DNA of 31,463 nucleotides from a virus. Below are positions 1,372 to 24,549 of this stretch, in pieces. Made by a program: the position numbers and the translations under genes. The notes below the pieces were generated by a model. That model was not told where the DNA came from and made no database searches. It saw only the letters and a list, made by a program, of their open reading frames with translations. The stretch's first letter is position 1. Each line of letters starts with the position of its first letter. Location: IMG/VR virus record IMGVR_UViG_3300047546_001528, positions 1 through 31,463 of that record. One strand, given 5' to 3'.

Positions 1372-1472
1372 AAAAAAGAAATAGAGTAGGGATTCGAACC
1401 CTCGCATTGAACCTTGCCTCGACTTTGAGTTGGTGAGTCGCCTTGACTGCTTACTCATCTCTATTTCTTTAT
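1372..1472 (-). ncRNA. tRNA-like small RNA (class II size, anticodon arm not canonical)
   Basis: On the minus strand, AATAGAG (1459-1465) pairs with CTCTATT (1380-1386), and pairing extends outward to 12 bp (AAAGAAATAGAG with CTCTATTTCTTT). Next to the 3' strand is a good T-arm, AGGG-TTCGAAT-CCCT. The 86-nt core has the length of a class II (Leu/Ser) tRNA. GAGT and ACTC could form a D-stem with a large loop. The anticodon arm fails: the loop CTCAAAG (anticodon CAA, Leu) has no 5-bp stem, and the best alternative stem (CGACT/AGTCG) closes an 11-nt loop. No CCA is encoded. Promoter P3 would start transcription at about the first base of the long stem, and six U residues follow its other strand. 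It could be a decayed tRNA or a tRNA mimic. Confidence 0.55.
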
Positions 1473-2605: not shown

Positions 2606-2896
2606 TTACACCTGACTCACATGGGTAATCACAAATCTTCCGCTCCCAGAAATCATCCCTTTGAGAATGACATGGATATTGCCATGTTTAATAATATATA
2701 CACAGGAATCAAGCCCTTCTTTAAACATATTCTTTGCATCGAATCCGTTTAACTGACGAAACTCATGAAGAAATGCCAAATTCTCAGGCGATGGTGACTT
2801 AATTACATCGCTGTACACAACTTCTGCACCCATCTTTTGCGCCACCCGTGTCAAATCATCATGCGTATATACATAGAAAAAATTATCGTAAGACAT
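2606..2896 (-). CDS. Hypothetical protein (96 aa), last gene of the cassette
   Basis: The start codon overlaps the stop of the upstream membrane-protein gene at 2896, so the two are translationally coupled. The protein is soluble, with no signal or membrane segment. It contains an N-terminal stretch YDNFFYVYTHDDLTRVAQKM resembling a helix-strand unit and a C-terminal beta-rich part (SCVYIIKHGNIHVILKGMI). No family recognised. It ends a seven-gene chain that begins with the BMP lipoprotein gene. Confidence 0.6.
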   Translation of the reverse strand: MSYDNFFYVYTHDDLTRVAQKMGAEVVYSDVIKSPSPENLAFLHEFRQLNGFDAKNMFKEGLDSCVYIIKHGNIHVILKGMISGSGRFVITHVSQV

Positions 2897-3264
2897 TATA
2901 ATCGCTCCTTAATATAATCTATTAAAAATGTAGCCAGAATAAACGCAAAGAAAATGCTGCCTACCTCGCCCACGACAAAACTCGTAGTATCGAAGTAGGC
3001 TAAGAGAAACCCTGCGAGAATGGTATACCGTGAAAAGAACAACGGTACCTCCAGAAGAAATATTGGGTCATTCCGGTAATCCGGTAGCCAGTCATACACT
3101 AGGGAGTAGTAAACCGAGACCCCTGTAGCAAGTATGGTAAGGAGTAGGATGCCGTAAGTTGGTAAGCCTCCTCCGTAGACGTAAGTATAAAGGTTATTGA
3201 TAAATCGCTCGTATTTCGTATTACTAAATCTTGCGCTTGCCCACTGAGTCCAGTTTCGTTCCAT
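2896..3264 (-). CDS. Membrane protein with three predicted helices (122 aa)
   Basis: Hydrophobic segments at about residues 36-56 (GILLLTILATGVSVYYSLVY), 68-90 and 98-117, with a charged N-terminus (MERNWTQW) and a C-terminus ending in KERL. AGGA lies ten bases before the ATG. Its first 55 codons (166 bp) overlap the C-terminal part of the VanW gene in another frame. Because the first membrane helix lies within the overlap and a ribosome site precedes the ATG, I keep the long start, although a shorter start cannot be excluded. No family recognised. It may be an anchoring partner of the VanW protein, an inference from the overlap only. Confidence 0.55.
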   Translation of the reverse strand: MERNWTQWASARFSNTKYERFINNLYTYVYGGGLPTYGILLLTILATGVSVYYSLVYDWLPDYRNDPIFLLEVPLFFSRYTILAGFLLAYFDTTSFVVGEVGSIFFAFILATFLIDYIKERL

Positions 3265-3644
3265 ATAGATACATTGTCCTGCCTTTCTACCCCAAGTAAT
3301 GGGGTGCTATGTCTCACAAACGTTCTTTCAAGATTCAGATGCCTCGCAAGTTCCGCATAGCGTGATGCAAGGTCACACCAGCCCCCGCCGTAGATACCAT
3401 AGGCATATACGAGGGGGTACTGGTCAGGGTTACCGACTGTCTCATTGAACGACCATTCCTGTCCTGGCGGGATGGTTACCGTGGCGAGTACAGGAAGTAT
3501 TGGATTAATATTCTCGTCTATAATTGTGCCCTTTCGTAAGGGGCTTGCGTCTACCTCATACCGGCGGGGAAATATCCCCACGCTAAGTAGGAGAATGAAT
3601 AATATGTATACAGTCATTATGCCGGAGCGTGTAACTAAATCCAT
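3099..3644 (-). CDS. VanW-domain protein with N-terminal membrane anchor (181 aa)
   Basis: Residues 11-24 form a single hydrophobic segment (signal anchor or signal peptide). Residues 52-165 match the VanW family: PPGQEWSFNETVG, then GIYGGGWCDLASRYAELAR (the GGG-x-C core; Cys90), LNLERTFVRHS, DNVSIW and DLVIRNTSDLSITF. VanW proteins are envelope-associated, known from vancomycin-resistance clusters, and of uncertain biochemical function. An upstream in-frame ATG at 3680 has no ribosome site. The ATG at 3644 has a weak AGAAG, and the one at 3617 has none. The N-terminus overlaps the previous gene and the C-terminus overlaps the membrane-protein gene. A VanW protein in a phage suggests modification or masking of the host surface (inference). 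Confidence 0.72.
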   Translation of the reverse strand: MDLVTRSGIMTVYILFILLLSVGIFPRRYEVDASPLRKGTIIDENINPILPVLATVTIPPGQEWSFNETVGNPDQYPLVYAYGIYGGGWCDLASRYAELARHLNLERTFVRHSTPLLGVERQDNVSIWNETGLSGQAQDLVIRNTSDLSITFILTSTEEAYQLTASYSLPYLLQGSRFTTP

Positions 3645-3858
3645 ATTTCTTCTGAAGATGATTCCAGTATTTTTCTTCATCTGGTATTGTCACCGTGATA
3701 TAGATACGAAATATGATAAAACTCGTGTTACTGCTTGTGTCAATTTCCACAGGTACCAACGAAAGTTTTTGTAGTTCATTTCGTATCTTCCTTATCTTTT
3801 CGGGGGCGTCCACGTTTCTTACTGGGAGAAAGAGCGTAATACTGCTGTAACTCTTCAT
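3583..3858 (-). CDS. Hypothetical protein (91 aa) overlapping both neighbours
   Basis: ATG at 3858 has GGAG six bases upstream, giving MKSYSSITLFLPVRN and a mixed alpha/beta protein: strand, helix (EKIRKIRNELQKL), strand, strand (SFIIFRIYITVTI), helix (EKYWNHLQKKYG), an ACT- or ferredoxin-like alternation. The ATG at 3912 also has an AGGAG at nine bases, so a longer form with about 110 residues is possible. It overlaps the AT-hook gene upstream by at least 83 bp and the VanW gene downstream by up to 62 bp. No function recognised. Which start is used is uncertain. Confidence 0.5.
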   Translation of the reverse strand: MKSYSSITLFLPVRNVDAPEKIRKIRNELQKLSLVPVEIDTSSNTSFIIFRIYITVTIPDEEKYWNHLQKKYGFSYTLRHNDCIHIIHSPT

Positions 3859-3973
3859 CACTGGCTCCGATATACTTTGCGGGACTGTTGTCTGCGTTTC
3901 GGGCTTCTCCATTACCAATTACTCCTACAACTTGTATTTTTCCGTCACTCCCTACGACTTCATAGTATTTCAT
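3776..3973 (-). CDS. Small AT-hook protein (65 aa)
   Basis: The ATG at 3973 is preceded by AGGAGAGAA, an excellent ribosome site. The N-terminus (MKYYEVVGSDGKIQVVGVIG) is beta-like. The C-terminus is KKRGRPRKDKEDTK, with the GRP core of an AT-hook that inserts in the minor groove of AT-rich DNA. The protein is otherwise acidic and short. It overlaps the zinc-ribbon gene by 14 bp. It may bind DNA or act as an anti-host factor. The only clear domain is the hook. Confidence 0.62.
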   Translation of the reverse strand: MKYYEVVGSDGKIQVVGVIGNGEARNADNSPAKYIGASDEELQQYYALSPSKKRGRPRKDKEDTK

Positions 3974-4169
3974 TTCTCTCCTCTATAATGCGTAATAAGT
4001 CCTCGTTATCAAGCGAGTCAATAACCATCGAGTATATACCTGTGTAGCACAATATACAGAGTGAGAGTGGAAGTATACCGATATAACCAAGCATACCCCA
4101 CTCCTCTTCAGCATATTCAATGCTACAGAGAGCGCACGGCTTTCCGTGCGGGTTAAGAGGGTCATTCAC
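3960..4169 (-). CDS. Small protein with two CxxC pairs and a hydrophobic centre (69 aa)
   Basis: Cys12/Cys15 (PCALC) and Cys38/Cys41 (LCILC) form a CxxC-22-CxxC zinc-ribbon-like layout. The second pair, however, lies in a very hydrophobic run (GYIGILPLSLCILCYTGIYSMVI, residues 28-50) that could be a membrane helix. The C-terminus is charged (DNEDLLRIIEERNEIL). It starts two bases after the RNase H-like gene, and its end overlaps the AT-hook gene by 14 bp. Shine-Dalgarno is weak. No family recognised. Confidence 0.55.
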   Translation of the reverse strand: MNDPLNPHGKPCALCSIEYAEEEWGMLGYIGILPLSLCILCYTGIYSMVIDSLDNEDLLRIIEERNEIL

Positions 4170-4171
4170 TG

Positions 4172-4555
4172 TTAGTGTCCTAATATTTCTTTAATTATTA
4201 CACGATTTACTCGTGTGTATTTGTAGCCACCAAACGCATTAAGGCGTTCTCGTATTCTCTCTGCGAGATAGTTATATACCTCACGGGTCGATACTTGATT
4301 CTTTGTAACCGTGGTATGTACTGTTGAACAGTCTCCGTACACCTTTAAGAATACCTTAGAAATATCTGGCGTGTTGATGTGCAACCAGCGAAGCGCACGG
4401 AGCAATACCGTGAACTCCGCTTGGTTACTATCACCAATTCCATCCATCTCATACACTTGATGGTGCCGTAGACATTCTTCCTTTATGCTGTCATAGTAGA
4501 CTTTAAAACTACCATGCACAGTTCCCCCATCAAAATAGAGATGAATCGTTTTCAT
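4172..4555 (-). CDS. RNase H-like protein (127 aa), incomplete active site
   Basis: The frame has the order of a type I ribonuclease H/RVT_3 domain: LYFDGG (Asp9), NQAEFTVLLRALRWL (Glu47) and VYGDCSTV (Asp75), the first three metal-binding residues. The C-terminal R..N..AD helix that carries the fourth acidic residue is not recognisable: the protein ends RVNRVIIKEILGH, with no Asp. It may be a reduced-activity RNase H or a binding protein. RNase H would remove RNA primers or R-loops. The start overlaps the stop of the BMP lipoprotein gene (ATGA type), so the two are co-translated. Confidence 0.72.
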   Translation of the reverse strand: MKTIHLYFDGGTVHGSFKVYYDSIKEECLRHHQVYEMDGIGDSNQAEFTVLLRALRWLHINTPDISKVFLKVYGDCSTVHTTVTKNQVSTREVYNYLAERIRERLNAFGGYKYTRVNRVIIKEILGH

Positions 4556-5712
4556 TACTTACCTGATGATTGTCCGTCAATACCCTGTAGCAACTGGGTT
4601 TGATACCAAATCAGCTTGTCCGTAACTTCCTGACCTGCACCCACGAACGTGCTTCCATCTTGGTAGAGCAAGGGACCAGTCCACAAGTTCAAGCCACCCT
4701 TAAGATTTTCAATGAACAAGTCCAGTTTATCGTTCTGGTCAAATGCGTTGTTGCGCAAGAAACCAATACCACTGGTCGTGCTCAAGTTGTCAAAATCAGG
4801 CGAGAACCAAATAAACTGTTGCTTCCACGTACCGTTGATATGCTCTTCAACCATCTTGCTGTACTCTGGGTACCAGTTGAAGTATGGAACACCGATACAT
4901 GAATTCACACCACGGTTACACGCACTCTGGAAGTCGTAAGGAATACTCTTTACTGCCTTACCCTCCATGTGTGCCTTTTCCACTTCGACAACCACTTCAG
5001 GAGTGTCGATACCTGACATAATCACATCGTAACCCTGTGTCATGAAGTCTTTCGTGACCAACGTGGGGTCGAGTGTAACACCAGGAATGTTAAACCAGAA
5101 ACCAATCCATTTCACGCTAAATACCAGTTTACTTAGGTCTTCTGCTTTGTATGAAGTCCAGCAGTAGCGTGCGCCGAGATATGCGGCATTGACCAAACGC
5201 CGTGTTTCATCATTCACCAGAGGACCAACGTATGCAATCTTACCGGTCTGTGAAGAAAGAGCAGCTGCACAACCAGCAATCATCTTTCCATACTCCATCT
5301 TACCCATGATGTTACTCAAGTTTGCAGGAGCCTTACCAGTCATCACGTCATCCCCTGATGCGTGTACAAAAGTGACCTCCGGATGTGCCTTTGCAGCTTC
5401 ACGAATCGAATCCTTAAAGTCATCCGAGTTTGCAATCACCAAAGTAGCACCCTGAGAAATGAGTTCCCCTGCTACCTGCTCTGCGCTCACATTTGGGCGG
5501 TCGGCTGGATTTACCTTATCCACGTAGATAAAATTAATACCCTTTTCATCTTCGATACGCTTCATCGCATCATAGTGAGCCTGACTCCAACCACCGTCAT
5601 TCTTTGGACCAACCAGAATCATACCAACAGTCTCTTTTGGTTTTTCTGCCGTTCCACAAGCAGTGACAAACACCATCGCAAGAACAAGCAACAAGTTTCT
5701 AAAAATACCCAT
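4555..5712 (-). CDS. BMP/PnrA-family substrate-binding lipoprotein (385 aa)
   Basis: The N-terminus is a lipoprotein signal: MGIFRNLLLVLAMVFVTAC, lipobox VTAC, Cys19. The mature protein matches the BMP (PnrA/TmpC) family of ABC-transporter binding proteins: VGMILVGPKNDGGWSQAHYDAM at the first strand, SDDFKDSIREAAKAHPEVTF, then the YVGP, YDVIMSGIDTP and GVPYFNW regions. PnrA/TmpC members bind purine nucleosides, and others bind sugars or thiamine. No permease or ATPase gene is in the window, so it would have to use a host transporter or act by itself. It has a strong promoter of its own (5754-5782) with no late motif or 11-bp repeats, and AGGAG before the ATG. The first transcribed bases include GTCAG-GGAA-CTGAC, a tetraloop hairpin. 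This is a typical moron or auxiliary metabolic gene. Confidence 0.86.
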   Translation of the reverse strand: MGIFRNLLLVLAMVFVTACGTAEKPKETVGMILVGPKNDGGWSQAHYDAMKRIEDEKGINFIYVDKVNPADRPNVSAEQVAGELISQGATLVIANSDDFKDSIREAAKAHPEVTFVHASGDDVMTGKAPANLSNIMGKMEYGKMIAGCAAALSSQTGKIAYVGPLVNDETRRLVNAAYLGARYCWTSYKAEDLSKLVFSVKWIGFWFNIPGVTLDPTLVTKDFMTQGYDVIMSGIDTPEVVVEVEKAHMEGKAVKSIPYDFQSACNRGVNSCIGVPYFNWYPEYSKMVEEHINGTWKQQFIWFSPDFDNLSTTSGIGFLRNNAFDQNDKLDLFIENLKGGLNLWTGPLLYQDGSTFVGAGQEVTDKLIWYQTQLLQGIDGQSSGK

Positions 5713-5753
5713 ACTTTCTCCTATTTGTATATTGTCAGTTCCCTGACTTTCTT

Positions 5754-5782
5754 AGTATACCACAGGATAATATGCTTGTCAA
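5754..5782 (-). promoter_or_regulatory. Sigma-70 promoter of the lipoprotein cassette (TTGACA-N17-TATACT)
   Basis: Minus strand -35 at 5777-5782, 17-bp spacer, TATACT at 5754-5759, start expected near 5747. It abuts the stop codon of the 37-aa gene (5785). It lacks the phage-specific elements seen at other promoters, so the host polymerase alone should use it, possibly at all times. Confidence 0.85.
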
Positions 5783-5784
5783 AT

Positions 5785-5898
5785 CTACTCAAAACTCTCC
5801 ATCACGTAGAATACTTTTAGGCGTTCCACAATGTCAAGAAAGTAATCCGCAATTACAAGTACAGCGGCGATAAATACAATACGTTCAATCCACTTCAT
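5785..5898 (-). CDS. Small membrane peptide (37 aa)
   Basis: Minus-strand ATG at 5898 with AGGAG seven bases upstream opens MKWIERIVFIAAVLVIADYF and ends at TAG 5785. Residues 7-20 are hydrophobic, flanked by Lys/Arg and acidic residues, giving a single-span peptide. It lies after the hairpin that follows the holin candidate and before the lipoprotein promoter, with no promoter of its own, so it must rely on read-through of the late lysis transcript. A small lysis accessory is plausible, but no family is recognised. Confidence 0.65.
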   Translation of the reverse strand: MKWIERIVFIAAVLVIADYFLDIVERLKVFYVMESFE

Positions 5899-5915: not shown

Positions 5916-5942
5916 AAAAGTAACCCCCTTTCGGGGGTTACT
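5916..5942 (-). terminator. Intrinsic terminator after the lysis genes
   Basis: Minus strand: 10-bp stem AGTAACCCCC / GGGGGTTACT (5933-5942 with 5919-5928), GAAA loop, then TTTTC. It lies 7 bp beyond the holin-candidate stop. The short U-run suggests partial termination, consistent with read-through into the 37-aa gene. Confidence 0.75.
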
Positions 5943-8812: not shown

Positions 8813-11416
8813 TTACCTCACTGTAGTGTTACCTGCTGGTTTTGCAAGTACAGGTGTGATTGTTGGAGCAATCGCAGTTTTTCCACGGAGTGCATAGATA
8901 AAACAGAGATAACTCGCAAAAATGTGGTCATCATCCGATGCACCGACACCACGTTCATTCATAATATAATAGTGGTCATTACCAGTAATACGCTTTTGGC
9001 GAGTAAGTCTCTCAAGTTGACTTACACCCTCGGTGTCTATTTCAGAAAATAAGAGCGTACCCTCTGTGACCATTCGTGCGATTTCTTTCGAACCCCAACT
9101 GCGAAATACCTCAGTAAGTTCAGTATCGTCGTCTGTTCGACCAACTGACACACGCTCATTAAAAAGCACAGGAATGATTCTTTCAGCATATTTATAAAGT
9201 GTGTACTCCTCCCGACTACAGAGCGACTGGTATATACCAGCACCGCCACCACCGGCACCAACGTCAATTGCAATCTTTGTGGGATTGTAAAACTGCGTCA
9301 GGTAGTGGATAATTGCTTCCTGCTCAGGATAGTCAATTTTTGTAATTCGGTATCTTACCAAAGTAATGTATTTGTTATTTTTTGCTCCGACTACTTGTAT
9401 CACTGTTGGGTCTGAAAAACCAGTATCTATAGAAAAAATAACGTAATCATAACCAGTTATTTTATGTAATTTTAGTACATCCTTGAATTGTCTTCCTTTC
9501 AGTTTGTCGTTATTGGAGTAACGATAACTAAAGAAGTCAACTTGTTCAAGTGTAAACGCATCTCTTGGAATAACTTGGAATGATGCGCTTCCGTGACGAC
9601 CTAGCACTAATTGTTGAAAAATATCTTCTTCGATACCACCATATTTCCGCAGTGCATCATTCCAGTCATCCAGGGTAAAGTATGGATTATTGGGTGATGG
9701 TATGCGATACTTTTTGTACTTCGGGCGGCGAATATCTAAGTCATAGAGCGCACTATTGCGCAATCCATTTGGAACTCCGCAGTATATCTCTTGTATTTTA
9801 GGTTCCCATGTATTAAGTGTAGGTTGCAGCTGATTAAAGGCAGTCATGGGAAATAACTGCATCTCATCCCCAGCGATACGAGGAATATGTAAACCTACCA
9901 AGTTATTACTTTCTTTTGTACCTGCGATACGTGCATTGAAACGATGGTTTCTCGAGCCGAACTTAAAGTCAAGTGTTCCTTTCGAACGATTCACATTGTT
10001 ACCAAGAAAGTCTTTGAGCAGTGGGCTTGTGGTAAATTTTAACACAAGCCGGTCTAGTAGTGGCGTTAACTGATTTGAGTTAGGAGTCACTAATAACTGT
10101 TCCGACGTTTTTGGAAACTCTATGTCATTATTTACAATTTGATATGTAAGCAAGTCCTCAATAATCACCGAATTGTGTACAACAACATAATCTGAAATGT
10201 AGGTCTCATCAGTATAGACGTGAACGGCATACGTGGGCATATTGTAACTGCGGCTGTGTCGGCTAATAATTGGTTCCCAGCGGATATTGTCAGGTGGCTC
10301 GATGTTACTTAAATCAAGATTCACCTTAATTCCTGGGATATTAAACGTAGCCCAAAAACGAAGTGCATTTTCTTTGTCTAAGGTGGTGATTTCCCAAATA
10401 GAAAAATCGCCGCCATAGCCGTATGTCTTTTGCACAACATCTTTTGTCTTCTTACGTACCGTACTGATACCAAAGTACATCAGAACTTCTTGAAACTCTT
10501 TTGTAAAGTTTTCATTTGGTATTCGCAGAGATACCTGGTACCGGTCAAATGTAGCGTACTGGGCAAAGACCGCCTCTAGAAATACCTTAATGTTTTCAAG
10601 GCGTTGATTCTTAATGAAGTCTAGGTTCTGCCGCTTTCGCTCGTTCTTTGTTGTGTTAATACCACATTCTCGCCATAGTTGACGAATGTAGTGTCGAGTT
10701 TGCCCTGTTTTAATGCGGTCAAGGTAGTATCTTCCGTCTTCAATGCGTACCGTAAGGTACATATTCTTAGCAATAAACTCAAGTTCTTCAGCAATTTGTT
10801 TAAATCTGGGTTTTAAGCCCATATAGCCGACCACTTTAACATTGTTAAGAATATCATAACCCATCGCACGTAGCTCGAACCAAGAGAATGTATTATACAC
10901 ACAATGGTCAGTAGGTAACTGATTTGTAACTGCGATTAAGTCACCTATCTTTAAATCACCTGCCACAACAAAACCTCGTGGCGTAAGAATCGGATGATTA
11001 TAGGTACATTCAACTTCCTGTGTCTCGGTCTTGAATTTGTGAAGTTTAGTCCACTTATCTTTGGTAATTGTAGCCCGCCGCTGTCTGAACTTACCATCAG
11101 TTGTGTACGCATACGTAATAAAAGAATCTTTTTTAAGTAACTCTTTTATTGTTTTAAAACCTTCGGTTGTAAATATGCGTGCTGTCGTAGGCTGACATTT
11201 ACCAATAGAACGACCACCGGTAATAACAATATGTTTATTCTGGTCTGTAAGAATTTCTTTCTGGTAGGGTCTGTGCTTAAACTCATCAGAAGACCAGTTG
11301 TTTTTATTCATGTCTGCATTATTTGTTGAGCGCAAAAATTCACTAAACCACACAGGGTCTTCAATAATTTCGAGCAGGGCTAACTCTGAGTCATCAATTT
11401 TCTTCTGTAGAGCCAT
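8813..11416 (-). CDS. terL: Terminase large subunit with an in-frame intein (867 aa; 525 after splicing)
   Basis: The host protein has an ATPase and a nuclease domain. Walker A, GGRSIGK (67-73), is cut by the intein and is completed by Ser416. Walker B is RIAGDE (Asp517-Glu518). The RNase H-like nuclease carries Asp664 (FSIDTGFSDP), Asp718 (AIDVGAGGGG) and Asp828-830 (ASDDDHIFASY). The ATPase drives DNA into the capsid and the nuclease cuts concatemers, docked on the portal encoded next. The intein is described separately. It must splice for the P-loop to form, so packaging depends on splicing. The start overlaps the preceding small-subunit candidate by 23 bp. Confidence 0.93.
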   Translation of the reverse strand: MALQKKIDDSELALLEIIEDPVWFSEFLRSTNNADMNKNNWSSDEFKHRPYQKEILTDQNKHIVITGGRSIGKCQPTTARIFTTEGFKTIKELLKKDSFITYAYTTDGKFRQRRATITKDKWTKLHKFKTETQEVECTYNHPILTPRGFVVAGDLKIGDLIAVTNQLPTDHCVYNTFSWFELRAMGYDILNNVKVVGYMGLKPRFKQIAEELEFIAKNMYLTVRIEDGRYYLDRIKTGQTRHYIRQLWRECGINTTKNERKRQNLDFIKNQRLENIKVFLEAVFAQYATFDRYQVSLRIPNENFTKEFQEVLMYFGISTVRKKTKDVVQKTYGYGGDFSIWEITTLDKENALRFWATFNIPGIKVNLDLSNIEPPDNIRWEPIISRHSRSYNMPTYAVHVYTDETYISDYVVVHNSVIIEDLLTYQIVNNDIEFPKTSEQLLVTPNSNQLTPLLDRLVLKFTTSPLLKDFLGNNVNRSKGTLDFKFGSRNHRFNARIAGTKESNNLVGLHIPRIAGDEMQLFPMTAFNQLQPTLNTWEPKIQEIYCGVPNGLRNSALYDLDIRRPKYKKYRIPSPNNPYFTLDDWNDALRKYGGIEEDIFQQLVLGRHGSASFQVIPRDAFTLEQVDFFSYRYSNNDKLKGRQFKDVLKLHKITGYDYVIFSIDTGFSDPTVIQVVGAKNNKYITLVRYRITKIDYPEQEAIIHYLTQFYNPTKIAIDVGAGGGGAGIYQSLCSREEYTLYKYAERIIPVLFNERVSVGRTDDDTELTEVFRSWGSKEIARMVTEGTLLFSEIDTEGVSQLERLTRQKRITGNDHYYIMNERGVGASDDDHIFASYLCFIYALRGKTAIAPTITPVLAKPAGNTTVR
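10172..11197 (-). mobile_element. Intein in TerL (342 aa, class 1, decayed LAGLIDADG domain)
   Basis: Residues 74-415 of the TerL frame. Block A begins with nucleophile Cys1 (CQPTTARIFT). Block B is ECTYNHPILTPRG with the TxxH-type His. The terminal blocks read YAVHVYTDETYISDYVVVHN with His-Asn at the end, and the +1 extein residue is Ser. The middle holds an endonuclease-like segment: FLEAVFAQYATF, then QVSLRIPNENFTKEFQEVLMYFGI, which resembles the second half of a DOD (LAGLIDADG) homing nuclease, but its Asp-containing motif is lost. The insertion point is inside the P-loop, a common intein site in ATPases. Confidence 0.9.
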
Positions 11417-12763: not shown

Positions 12764-13447
12764 TCAACAGGATTCGTTATTTCCTGCCTGTTTTCTATGT
12801 TTATTTTTTAAGTATACGTAATGACGACGGCTTATTCCAAACTTACTTACTGCGTCTTTACAAGAATACTTAAGAATATCCTCAGCATTATAACTGCGTT
12901 TTGTATTAGGAATATTCATAGATTTTTTTAATCTATAATAATGCGTTTTACTTATGCTATACTTAGTGTTTGCTTCTTTAAAGGTTAATTTAACAATCTC
13001 TTCAGAATTATACGTTTCTTGAGAATTCCAGTAATCTTTTGACACCTTACTGAACAATTCTCTATTTTCTAAAGAGTGCTTCATTCCTTTAGCTGGAGTT
13101 TTACCAACTCTTGCTTTTTTTAACTTATTTTTCCAATCGGACACATCATTTATTGGAAAATAAGATTCACCACCATCAAGTATATTATAAGTATCACCAA
13201 GTAAATCCCGATAATATTTAACATAGTATTTCTCAGACGCTAAAAGGTCGTCTTCACTCTCGCAAGTTTTTAATATAGAAATAGAAAAATTTTCAAAGCC
13301 ATATTTACGCATCGCATCATATAGTTTTAATTTTTTTCCTCTTTTACTAGAACTCTTGTGTGACTTCCAGCGAACTTTTAAACTAGACCGAGTAATACCT
13401 ACATAAACAGAACCAGTTAACTCATTCCTAACTAAATAAACATACAT
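12764..13447 (-). CDS. GIY-YIG intron homing endonuclease (227 aa)
   Basis: GIY-YIG domain at residues 1-90: MYVYLVRNELTGSVYVGITR supplies both tyrosine motifs, then VRWKSH (Arg27) and SEKYYVKYYR (Glu72, the metal ligand). A NUMOD3-like DNA-binding segment follows (ARVGKTPAKGMKHSLENREL, about 125-145). Then come two related units of about 35 residues (NSEEIVKLTFKEANTKYSIS... and NAEDILKYSCKDAVSKFGIS...), each a short helix-turn-helix ending in HYYRLKK/HYVYLKN. I chose the ATG at 13447, preceded by AAGG; a longer frame runs back into the intron core. It ends 7 bp before the 3' splice site. Its expected role is to cut intronless nrdJ genes. Confidence 0.88.
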   Translation of the reverse strand: MYVYLVRNELTGSVYVGITRSSLKVRWKSHKSSSKRGKKLKLYDAMRKYGFENFSISILKTCESEDDLLASEKYYVKYYRDLLGDTYNILDGGESYFPINDVSDWKNKLKKARVGKTPAKGMKHSLENRELFSKVSKDYWNSQETYNSEEIVKLTFKEANTKYSISKTHYYRLKKSMNIPNTKRSYNAEDILKYSCKDAVSKFGISRRHYVYLKNKHRKQAGNNESC

Positions 13448-13582
13448 AACTACCTTACCTTTCGATAAGGGTCGGACTATATCATCACATTTCTGTGCTG
13501 TGCGCTTCGAGTACACTTGTACTCTACGACTTACGTCTAGTCTCTGAACCCCATCAGTGATGTGCTAAAGTACCATAAGGTA

Positions 13583-13611
13583 CTCTATTATTATACACTA
13601 TTTTTGTGTCA
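13583..13611 (-). promoter_or_regulatory. Late promoter L2 (29-bp motif) inside the intron
   Basis: Minus strand TGACACAAAAATAG, TG, TATAAT (13590-13595), AATAGAG. It lies 84 bp inside the intron and about 135 bp before the endonuclease ATG, with a short hairpin (AGTACC-TTAT-GGTACT) at the predicted start. It gives the endonuclease expression independent of nrdJ. Confidence 0.78.
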
Positions 13612-13694
13612 CTGACAAGGATGCTGATTAGCATATCTTTATGACTTAGCTTTCCAGCAGTTCACACAGTTTAAAGACCGCCAAACTTTAGTAA

Positions 13695-15205
13695 ACGGTC
13701 GTAACTAGGAGAGGTGTAGGAATACGAAGAACACTGGCATACTCTTGAGCCGCATTATTCGCAATCTTATTCAACTCCTGCAAGAACATCGCCAATGGAT
13801 ATTGCAACAAACTACCGTCTGAGTTTATAATTGGAACAAGTGCATCGACATCAGTTGAGTCAACTCCACACGCATCCAAAGCCTCCACATAGCCAGTGAA
13901 TGAAACGCCAGTCAAGCGGTCCCGCTTCTGCACTTCATCCCAATGGGGAAGTTCAAGTGTTACCGTGGTCATACGAAGACCAATACGAGTAGCCAAGATG
14001 ATTGCATTTGCCAACGCATTAAAGTCAATTTTACCGTGCTTAACGTAACCAGCCATGTTAATTTCTGAGAGATTACACACGCCATTGTCGGCAAGGAGAA
14101 TCTCCGCACATGGGTTGGTACCTGCATAGTATGGGCGACGTTTAGATGCGGCTTCAGCATTAATAAAACCTGGCTCACCATTGTTCGCAATACGTTCAAA
14201 AATATCCTTGAGTTGTTCTCGGGTTGGCTTCTTTTGGAAGTAAACCGAGTTATTACTCATAGAGCGATAACGGAACTCTTCTTTCTTTGGGTCACTCCAA
14301 AGATTGGTCTTGGCATCAAGAATATTATCATCGGTAATATCGAACAAGGTAATCTCGCTTGAACGACGAACACCGCCAACAACTACGCATGAGCCAATAA
14401 TATTCATAATGTCCATCGCCTGCACAGTGTTCAACTGGGCATTACCACGACACATGACACGGTGAATCTGCTTGAACATATCACGCAGTGCGGTATGACC
14501 TGAAGCACGACCACCAAATGTTTTAAGAATCTCACCTTGTTGGCGAACATTGTCGTAGTTAATCATAATCGACTCAACATACTTGTCAGAGCGCATTGTC
14601 TGGAAGTAAGCGTCTAACGCACTAACCCAGCCCTCTTTCGAGTCACCAACAATAATATAAACACCGCCGGAATCTTCATAAACTTGAGTTTCTTCAATAC
14701 GCTGGTCAGGCTTCTTTGGATGATACGGCTTGTGTGCCACAACTACATTGGTTTTAATCGCAGGTAGTCGATAAACATCTTGCGGAAGTACACGGAAACC
14801 AACCCCTGTACCAAGCATCATCAAATAAAAGGCATCAACAAACGCATCAAATGAATCAACTACAGTAAATGAACAATTGAAATTTGACAGGGGGAACTTG
14901 CGTGCGGCTTCCGTTCCGCCAATCCACATAGTGCGACCCGCAGTAAACAGGCGCAAATTAAACATCTCGTCAAAGAAATGCTCTGCCTCTTGACGAAGCA
15001 GAGTCATATCATTTGGACCAGAGTGAAGACTCATAGAATATTCTACGACACGACGACACGTTTCTTTCCAGTGTTCTCGGCGACCCAATTCAGGAAGAAA
15101 CCGTGAATAGGTGCGAAGATAAACAAACTGCCCAAGAATGGAATTCCATTCGGGGTTATCATTATACTTACTCAAAAACTCGTCGCTCAAAAAACTACTC
15201 GGCAT
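13695..15205 (-). CDS. nrdJ: Class II ribonucleotide reductase, exon 1 (N-terminal part)
   Basis: Converts ribonucleoside triphosphates to deoxyribonucleotides with adenosylcobalamin. With the ATG at 15205 (AAGGAG nine bases upstream; an in-frame ATG at 15226 lies before this ribosome site), the residues match the Lactobacillus enzyme in order and spacing: Cys111 (FNCSF; Cys119), Asn364, Cys366, Glu368 in NPCAEI (406, 408, 410) and Cys377 (419). Cys366 would form the thiyl radical and Cys111/Cys377 the disulfide. Other landmarks: LGTGVGFRV, SCVVVGGVRRSSEI and the GFINAEA loop. The uninterrupted frame ends in the intron at 13688. Overlaps the upstream gene by 11 bp. Confidence 0.93.
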
Positions 15206-24144: not shown

Positions 24145-24549
24145 ATGATTGATTTTGCCATTGGGTCAGGAGACTACTACGAGGATATTAATGAATTTCT
24201 CAAGGATGACCCTACTATTGAAACCGACATTACCATTGTTGGTATGAATAAGCGACTACGGATTCGTGCTCTTTCTTTTGTGCAGATGGAACGAATTAAT
24301 AAGCTCGCCACTAATTCCGAGGGTGTTATTGATAACACTGAGTTTGTACTACACACTATTGTAGAGGGGGTCGTGCGACCTAAGTTGAACTATGCTCAAG
24401 CACAAGCACTTACAAATGCGCACGGAGAGACGGTGAAAACTCTTGCAGAAAATATTTGGCAAATTGGAAAAATTTCAAAGTCCACATTCCAAGAATATAT
24501 CAAATCAGTACAGGACCTTAAAGCCGTACCGGATGTTGAAAAAGACTAA
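24145..24549 (+). CDS. Tail assembly chaperone G (134 aa)
   Basis: The gene between tail tube and tape measure, with a second frame overlapping its end, is the G/GT pair of siphoviruses. Sequence: ETDITIVGMNKRLRIRAL, then FVLHTIVEGVVRPKLNYAQA and a helical end (TLAENIWQIGKISKSTFQEY). The codons before the stop read GAT GTT GAA AAA GAC TAA, with a run of five A, where a shift into the next frame is possible. Confidence 0.75.
   Translation: MIDFAIGSGDYYEDINEFLKDDPTIETDITIVGMNKRLRIRALSFVQMERINKLATNSEGVIDNTEFVLHTIVEGVVRPKLNYAQAQALTNAHGETVKTLAENIWQIGKISKSTFQEYIKSVQDLKAVPDVEKD

Follow-up and report, generated by a model that had tools for sequence, protein, structure and literature searches.

Phages can carry the receptor, and only the receptor, of a host ATP-binding cassette (ABC) importer, as with pstS, which has been reported in cyanobacterial viruses (PMC3429862). 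Among bacterial receptors, AtzT holds guanine in a sandwich of Tyr45 and Trp194, with Ser97, Glu165 and Asn220 among the other contacts, and the Brucella protein 3s99 has been modelled with adenine (PMC6834077). Envelope enzymes include the VanW family, long without an assigned function until 2024, when two members from C. difficile were recognised as L,D-transpeptidases that use a triad of Cys, His and a small residue (PMC12729407). Here, we describe a leftward gene cassette (positions 2606–5712) that encodes relatives of both kinds of protein, a BMP lipoprotein and a VanW-domain protein, in an uncultured phage. The window analysed is the full IMG/VR record IMGVR_UViG_3300047546_001528 (31,463 bases), an incomplete phage genome fragment. 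In the literature library searched, no paper described a BMP lipoprotein or VanW gene carried by a phage.

The eight leftward open reading frames (ORFs) listed in the initial annotation were all recovered on the minus strand with unchanged coordinates; positions given below for the cassette and its flanking signals refer to that strand. Two features stand out, namely a lipoprotein with a predicted purine-binding pocket and a VanW gene that also encodes the start of a membrane protein, TM122, in a second frame. We give about even odds to a reading of the cassette as a takeover unit with a promoter of its own, carried by an apparently virulent phage and combining purine feeding with wall remodelling.

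A predicted purine-base receptor

The first cassette gene (4555–5712) encodes a BMP/PnrA-like lipoprotein of 385 aa, which matches PF02608 at 62.6 bits (cutoff 24.1). Its lipobox cysteine, C19, is invariant and follows a hydrophobic N-terminus, as in a lipoprotein signal peptide, and export and lipidation of the predicted product can be strongly inferred. The AlphaFold2 model (predicted local distance difference test, pLDDT, 91) displays a two-lobed periplasmic-binding fold whose top Protein Data Bank (PDB) matches belong to the BMP family. By sequence and by fold, the nearest solved structures are 3s99 and AtzT (TM-score 0.76–0.77; ~24% identity). The likeness includes the ligand site: Tyr45, Trp194, Ser97, Glu165 and Asn220 of AtzT align to W42, W206, S96, E169 and D236 of BMP, so that the aromatic sandwich and the Ser, Glu and Asn/Asp positions are all represented, and these five residues are invariant in 22 of 22 aligned phage and bacterial BMP sequences. 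We consider it fairly probable that BMP captures a purine.

In a phylogenetic tree, twelve phage BMPs group with Roseiflexaceae sequences, several of which come from named lakes (support 100/99). The Roseiflexaceae BMP genes precede genes for an ATPase and two permeases, and the receptor of this host importer is ~61% identical to phage BMP. Unlike AtzT and 3s99, BMP is phage-encoded, and in the regions examined the phages carry the receptor alone, with no permease genes nearby. The simplest reading is that of a phage-borne purine-base receptor that serves the importer of the host, much as PstS does in cyanophages. From PstS it would differ in its predicted ligand (a purine base rather than phosphate), its Chloroflexota-type sequence and its linkage to envelope genes. 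If true, this would extend PstS-like phage receptors that feed host importers to nucleic-acid precursors, the material that a phage needs most.

BMP lipoproteins were also found in two unrelated phage groups, at positions 9944–11089 of an 82-kb record (L044 type) and 9830–11104 of a 144-kb record (L041), both with separate descent in the tree. Matches to BMP in INPHARED displayed 22–29% identity and were located in unannotated human-gut contigs.

Dual coding in the VanW and TM122 genes

As first noted, the cassette genes overlap far more than genes elsewhere in the window. The AT-hook/u111, u111/VanW and VanW/TM122 overlaps span 143, 98 and 166 nt, respectively, along with shorter ones between the BMP and RNase H-like genes (1 nt), the Cys-pair and AT-hook ORFs (14 nt), and TM122 and u96 (1 nt); the RNase H-like and Cys-pair ORFs are 2 nt apart. 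Overlaps elsewhere in the window reach 53 nt at most, save for one 107-nt pair at 24443–24549. This pair lies on the plus strand ahead of a tape-measure-like gene and looks like tail-assembly chaperones, for which such an overlap is typical when they are made by frameshifting.

The VanW gene (3099–3680) and the TM122 gene (2896–3264) share the first 55 codons of TM122. This overlap measures 166 nt in eight of nine records and 163 nt in the ninth, with a constant frame relation. To obtain a null, VanW codons were resampled synonymously within each lineage, and conservation of the second frame was compared against the resulting distribution. The VanW/TM122 second frame is conserved well above this null (z 11.6), with z of at most 0.6 in VanW windows outside of the overlap and at most 5.3 in other genes used as controls. 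No stop codon interrupts the second frame within the overlap, as against 12–46 in control windows, and all seven second frames were open in none of 3,000 synonymous resamplings. Synonymous change is also lower inside the overlap in both frames, and in six of seven lineages the ATG start of TM122 owes its existence to an isoleucine codon of VanW being the rare ATA. The VanW/TM122 overlap is genuine dual coding, and as such provides a clear and testable instance of a membrane protein overprinted on a putative enzyme gene, with its register kept across divergent phages.

For the overlap of the AT-hook gene (3776–3973) with u111 (3583–3918; TTG start preceded by an AGGAG-type site), z reached 4.8, compared with 1.2 for the other frame, in an alignment of six rows of which three are closely related; this exceeds chance and may likewise reflect dual coding, although with weaker support than for VanW/TM122. 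The u111/VanW overlap was comparable in two lineages only, and no dual-coding claim is made for it.

No equivalent of TM122 is present in the VanW genes of Chloroflexia, and TM122 may therefore have originated by overprinting within VanW. In some of these bacterial genes the second frame is open through base composition, and the sequence it encodes is unrelated to TM122. A profile search of 158 genomes, representing the class of a Roseiflexaceae genome, recovered VanW domains and no TM122, the latter without a positive control for TM122.

The VanW-domain protein matches PF04294 at 24.9 bits (E 1.6e-5) and is a probable member of the VanW family, whose members have only recently been recognised to include wall cross-linkers. 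Among 50,697 phage records searched by tblastn, none had a VanW like the one in the window. With C. difficile LdtCd4 and LdtCd5 the window protein shares a probable VanW domain, a predicted N-terminal membrane anchor, and a conserved Cys and His (Cys102 and His124, invariant across seven phage lineages), features consistent with a predicted L,D-transpeptidase-like enzyme. It differs from them in its GGGWCD motif of Chloroflexia type and in a C-terminal third that overlaps another gene; in Chloroflexia VanW proteins the same GGGWCD cysteine is present and the His aligns a few residues off. The odds that this protein acts on peptidoglycan appear to us evenly balanced. TM122 contains three hydrophobic segments, the three-helix count of the initial annotation being a matter of hydropathy only, and matches no known family. 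It may be a partner of VanW, a suggestion that we make tentatively.

Promoter, terminators and modular inheritance

Two signals mark out the cassette as a leftward unit, apart from the holin gene. A terminator-like hairpin after the holin (5919–5942; 10-bp stem, T-rich tail) ends the lysis/structural unit, and a sigma-70 type promoter, TTGACA-N17-TATACT with TG before the -10 element (5754–5782; 11/12 match), lies upstream of BMP. Seven lineages have an equivalent promoter 68–78 nt 5′ of BMP, among them one with a relocated BMP gene. The window promoter looks to be of the ordinary kind that the phage offers to host polymerase, with nothing special about it, because comparable 11–12/12 matches occur elsewhere in the window, several of them ahead of leftward genes. 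A promoter such as had been claimed for the seven or eight genes is present, together with an upstream terminator-like hairpin, and the eight ORFs are presumably carried on a single transcript. Past the cassette, an HNH endonuclease-like ORF (1766–2236) is a neighbour rather than a member, and a strong terminator-like hairpin beyond it (1729–1754) is a possible transcript end.

The 5′ leader (5713–5753) includes a short hairpin with a GGAA loop and an AGGAG ribosome-binding site. The hairpin is predicted at the same place in all seven promoter-bearing lineages, with stems that differ in sequence and a loop that is often GAAA or GGAA, and is possibly a messenger-stabilising 5′ structure. Between the terminator and the promoter, tm37 (5785–5898) is a 37-aa single-helix membrane ORF with 73% identity in the closest relatives.

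These signals also bear on a possible role in lysis timing, in which VanW would cross-link peptidoglycan and an antiholin-like TM122 would help delay lysis. The VanW family does make cross-links, and nearly all relatives have the cassette next to genes for an amidase endolysin, a coiled-coil protein and a holin-like protein. However, the terminator and the cassette's own promoter part it from the lysis genes, an N6/N4 DNA methyltransferase gene (L021:13059–14141) intervenes between holin and BMP in several relatives, although not in the window, and TM122 has no known-family match, all of which makes a lysis-timing module quite improbable.

Gene content among relatives does not follow the cassette as a whole. 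VanW and TM122 occur together in nine of the nine records that have either, and BMP and the RNase H-like gene are found in every VanW-bearing record. Conversely, L003 (40.8 kb) and L029 (29.2 kb) have BMP but lack VanW, and in the L017 record BMP is 20 kb away on the other strand, two genes from ThyX. The co-occurrence proposed for the lipoprotein, VanW and the membrane protein is therefore obligate for VanW and TM122 and does not extend to BMP, and the independent occurrence of genes in relatives, named at the outset as evidence against a joint system, is in part what we observe. Sequence identities are similarly discordant: the window BMP shares 80% identity with its L003 counterpart, though the L003 portal is just 58% identical, and 71% with its L021 counterpart, though the L021 portal is 93% identical. 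BMP looks to have been exchanged between phages, in keeping with the moron-like label of the initial annotation; a moron has its own promoter and terminator and is foreign to its flanking genes. Because BMP moves on its own, the cassette is best described as a string of two or three modules sharing one promoter, not as one eight-gene system.

Independent exchange of BMP would also be expected if the cassette were just a set of unrelated accessory genes, placed on one transcript by position only, and so would the variable gene content between the RNase H-like and VanW genes and the restriction of the Cys-pair ORF and u96 to the window phage. The recurrence of the BMP–RNase H-like adjacency and of the VanW–TM122 pair across divergent relatives argues against such a collection, which we regard as unlikely.

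Possible roles during infection

Taking purine feeding and wall remodelling as the favoured reading, the host polymerase would read the cassette from its sigma-70 promoter independently of the lysis/structural unit, a step for which the evidence is at the sequence level. The BMP lipoprotein, as is strongly inferred, would be exported, lipidated and bind a purine base; it may then dock on the host ABC importer, raising purine intake for phage DNA synthesis, in the way that cyanophage PstS has been proposed to do for phosphate. Membrane-anchored, L,D-transpeptidase-like VanW would work on peptidoglycan, possibly along with TM122 at the membrane, and since the start of TM122 is embedded in the VanW gene, the two are likely co-expressed. 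The RNase H-like, AT-hook and u111 genes would be nucleic-acid-related or uncharacterised accessory genes on the same presumed transcript. In favour of this scheme, the window encodes a class II ribonucleotide reductase and MazG, and the BMP gene of one relative lies near ThyX, as mentioned above. A more elaborate version, with purine scavenging while the wall is reinforced or reshaped by VanW and TM122, and with TM122, overprinted in VanW, controlling VanW, seems to us rather doubtful.

Several observations weigh against the favoured reading. For BMP, Asn218 and Asn169 of AtzT are not kept, the former being Gly in phage BMP. For VanW, the Pfam score falls ~2 bits short of the cutoff of 27, the PG4 domains of LdtCd4 and LdtCd5 are lacking, and a fold search of the PDB and BFVD with the VanW model gave no significant match, although such an absence proves nothing. 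Some VanW proteins are also without L,D-transpeptidase activity (PMC12729407). Finally, the promoter upstream of BMP was not found in five family relatives, and the host assignment comes from gene trees alone.

The cassette was initially proposed to be a single exclusion or surface-remodelling system, in which the lipoprotein, VanW and TM122 would alter the envelope against adsorption or injection by other phages. Known exclusion factors of phages include lipoproteins and small membrane proteins, a stronger wall could result from VanW, and three products do face the envelope, as had been recognised: the lipoprotein, membrane-anchored VanW and TM122. The cassette also shares an own promoter and terminator and mosaic inheritance with classical prophage morons and superinfection-exclusion genes. 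It differs from these in that PADLOC defence models gave no match to any of nine proteins from the cassette region, and tyrosine and serine recombinases (PF00589, PF00239) had no match in nine records, several of them incomplete. Since no integrase was found, nothing points to a temperate lifestyle, long-term lysogen immunity is not expected, and the expression tests in lysogens once suggested may not apply; the phage is apparently virulent. Moreover, the purine pocket of BMP is complete, BMP falls among importer receptors in the tree, and BMP and VanW/TM122 are separable. The proposal of a single exclusion system draws on location alone and is supported by none of our results, and exclusion or surface remodelling in any form is rather unlikely. 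Hence, the cassette may serve to feed the infected cell and to remodel it, and not simply to block rival phages.

Other cassette genes, phage family and host

In the RNase H-like protein (4172–4555), D9, E47 and D75 are invariant and no fourth acidic residue is conserved; as the D-E-D-D active site of RNase HI is incomplete, "RNase H-like" is used as a label only. The ORF annotated as a zinc ribbon (3960–4169; GTG start) has two Cys pairs and putative zinc binding, scores below the Pfam threshold and is private to the window phage, with no relative in the fetched contigs. A C-terminal AT-hook with a GRP core (Pfam AT_hook 18.1 bits, cutoff 17.4) characterises the next small protein, which is conserved in several relatives. 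The uncharacterised u96 (2606–2896) has no relative among the fetched contigs.

On the left side of the window are genes for terminase, portal, an amidase endolysin, MazG and a class II ribonucleotide reductase; on the right, by our reading of the ORFs, are probable capsid and tail genes. The terminase has no match among the 50,697 phage records. Relatives in IMG/VR form an uncultured family with genomes of up to 78 kb and a common gene order of terminase, portal, endolysin, coiled coil, holin, BMP and RNase H-like. The host is probably a freshwater Chloroflexota, and probably one of the Roseiflexaceae; to our knowledge, few phages of freshwater Chloroflexota are known.

Several other elements were noted along the window. 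The terminase large subunit (8813–11416, minus strand) contains an intein at its Walker A motif, which appears conserved, with the same full-length alignment in most relatives. A group I intron at the class II ribonucleotide reductase gene (13453–13704, minus strand; Rfam 66.2 bits, gathering threshold 50) is accompanied by a GIY-YIG endonuclease ORF (12764–13516, minus strand) and is the sole Rfam match in the window at gathering threshold, with no riboswitch detected. A tRNA-like element (1373–1466, minus strand) has a 7–9 bp acceptor-like stem and a GGGTTCGAATCCC arm, with a 12/12 promoter upstream at 1507. ARAGORN detected nothing there, the Rfam tRNA-Sec score of 21.1 bits is under the cutoff of 47, and a script search of relatives for such elements did not recover the window's own element either. 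Finally, a GC-rich near-palindrome resembling TAGGGGGTAGGGGGTCCCCCTACCCCCA recurs seven times at 1–1768, amid small leftward ORFs with consensus promoters, and these copies are possibly repeated promoter-terminator modules.

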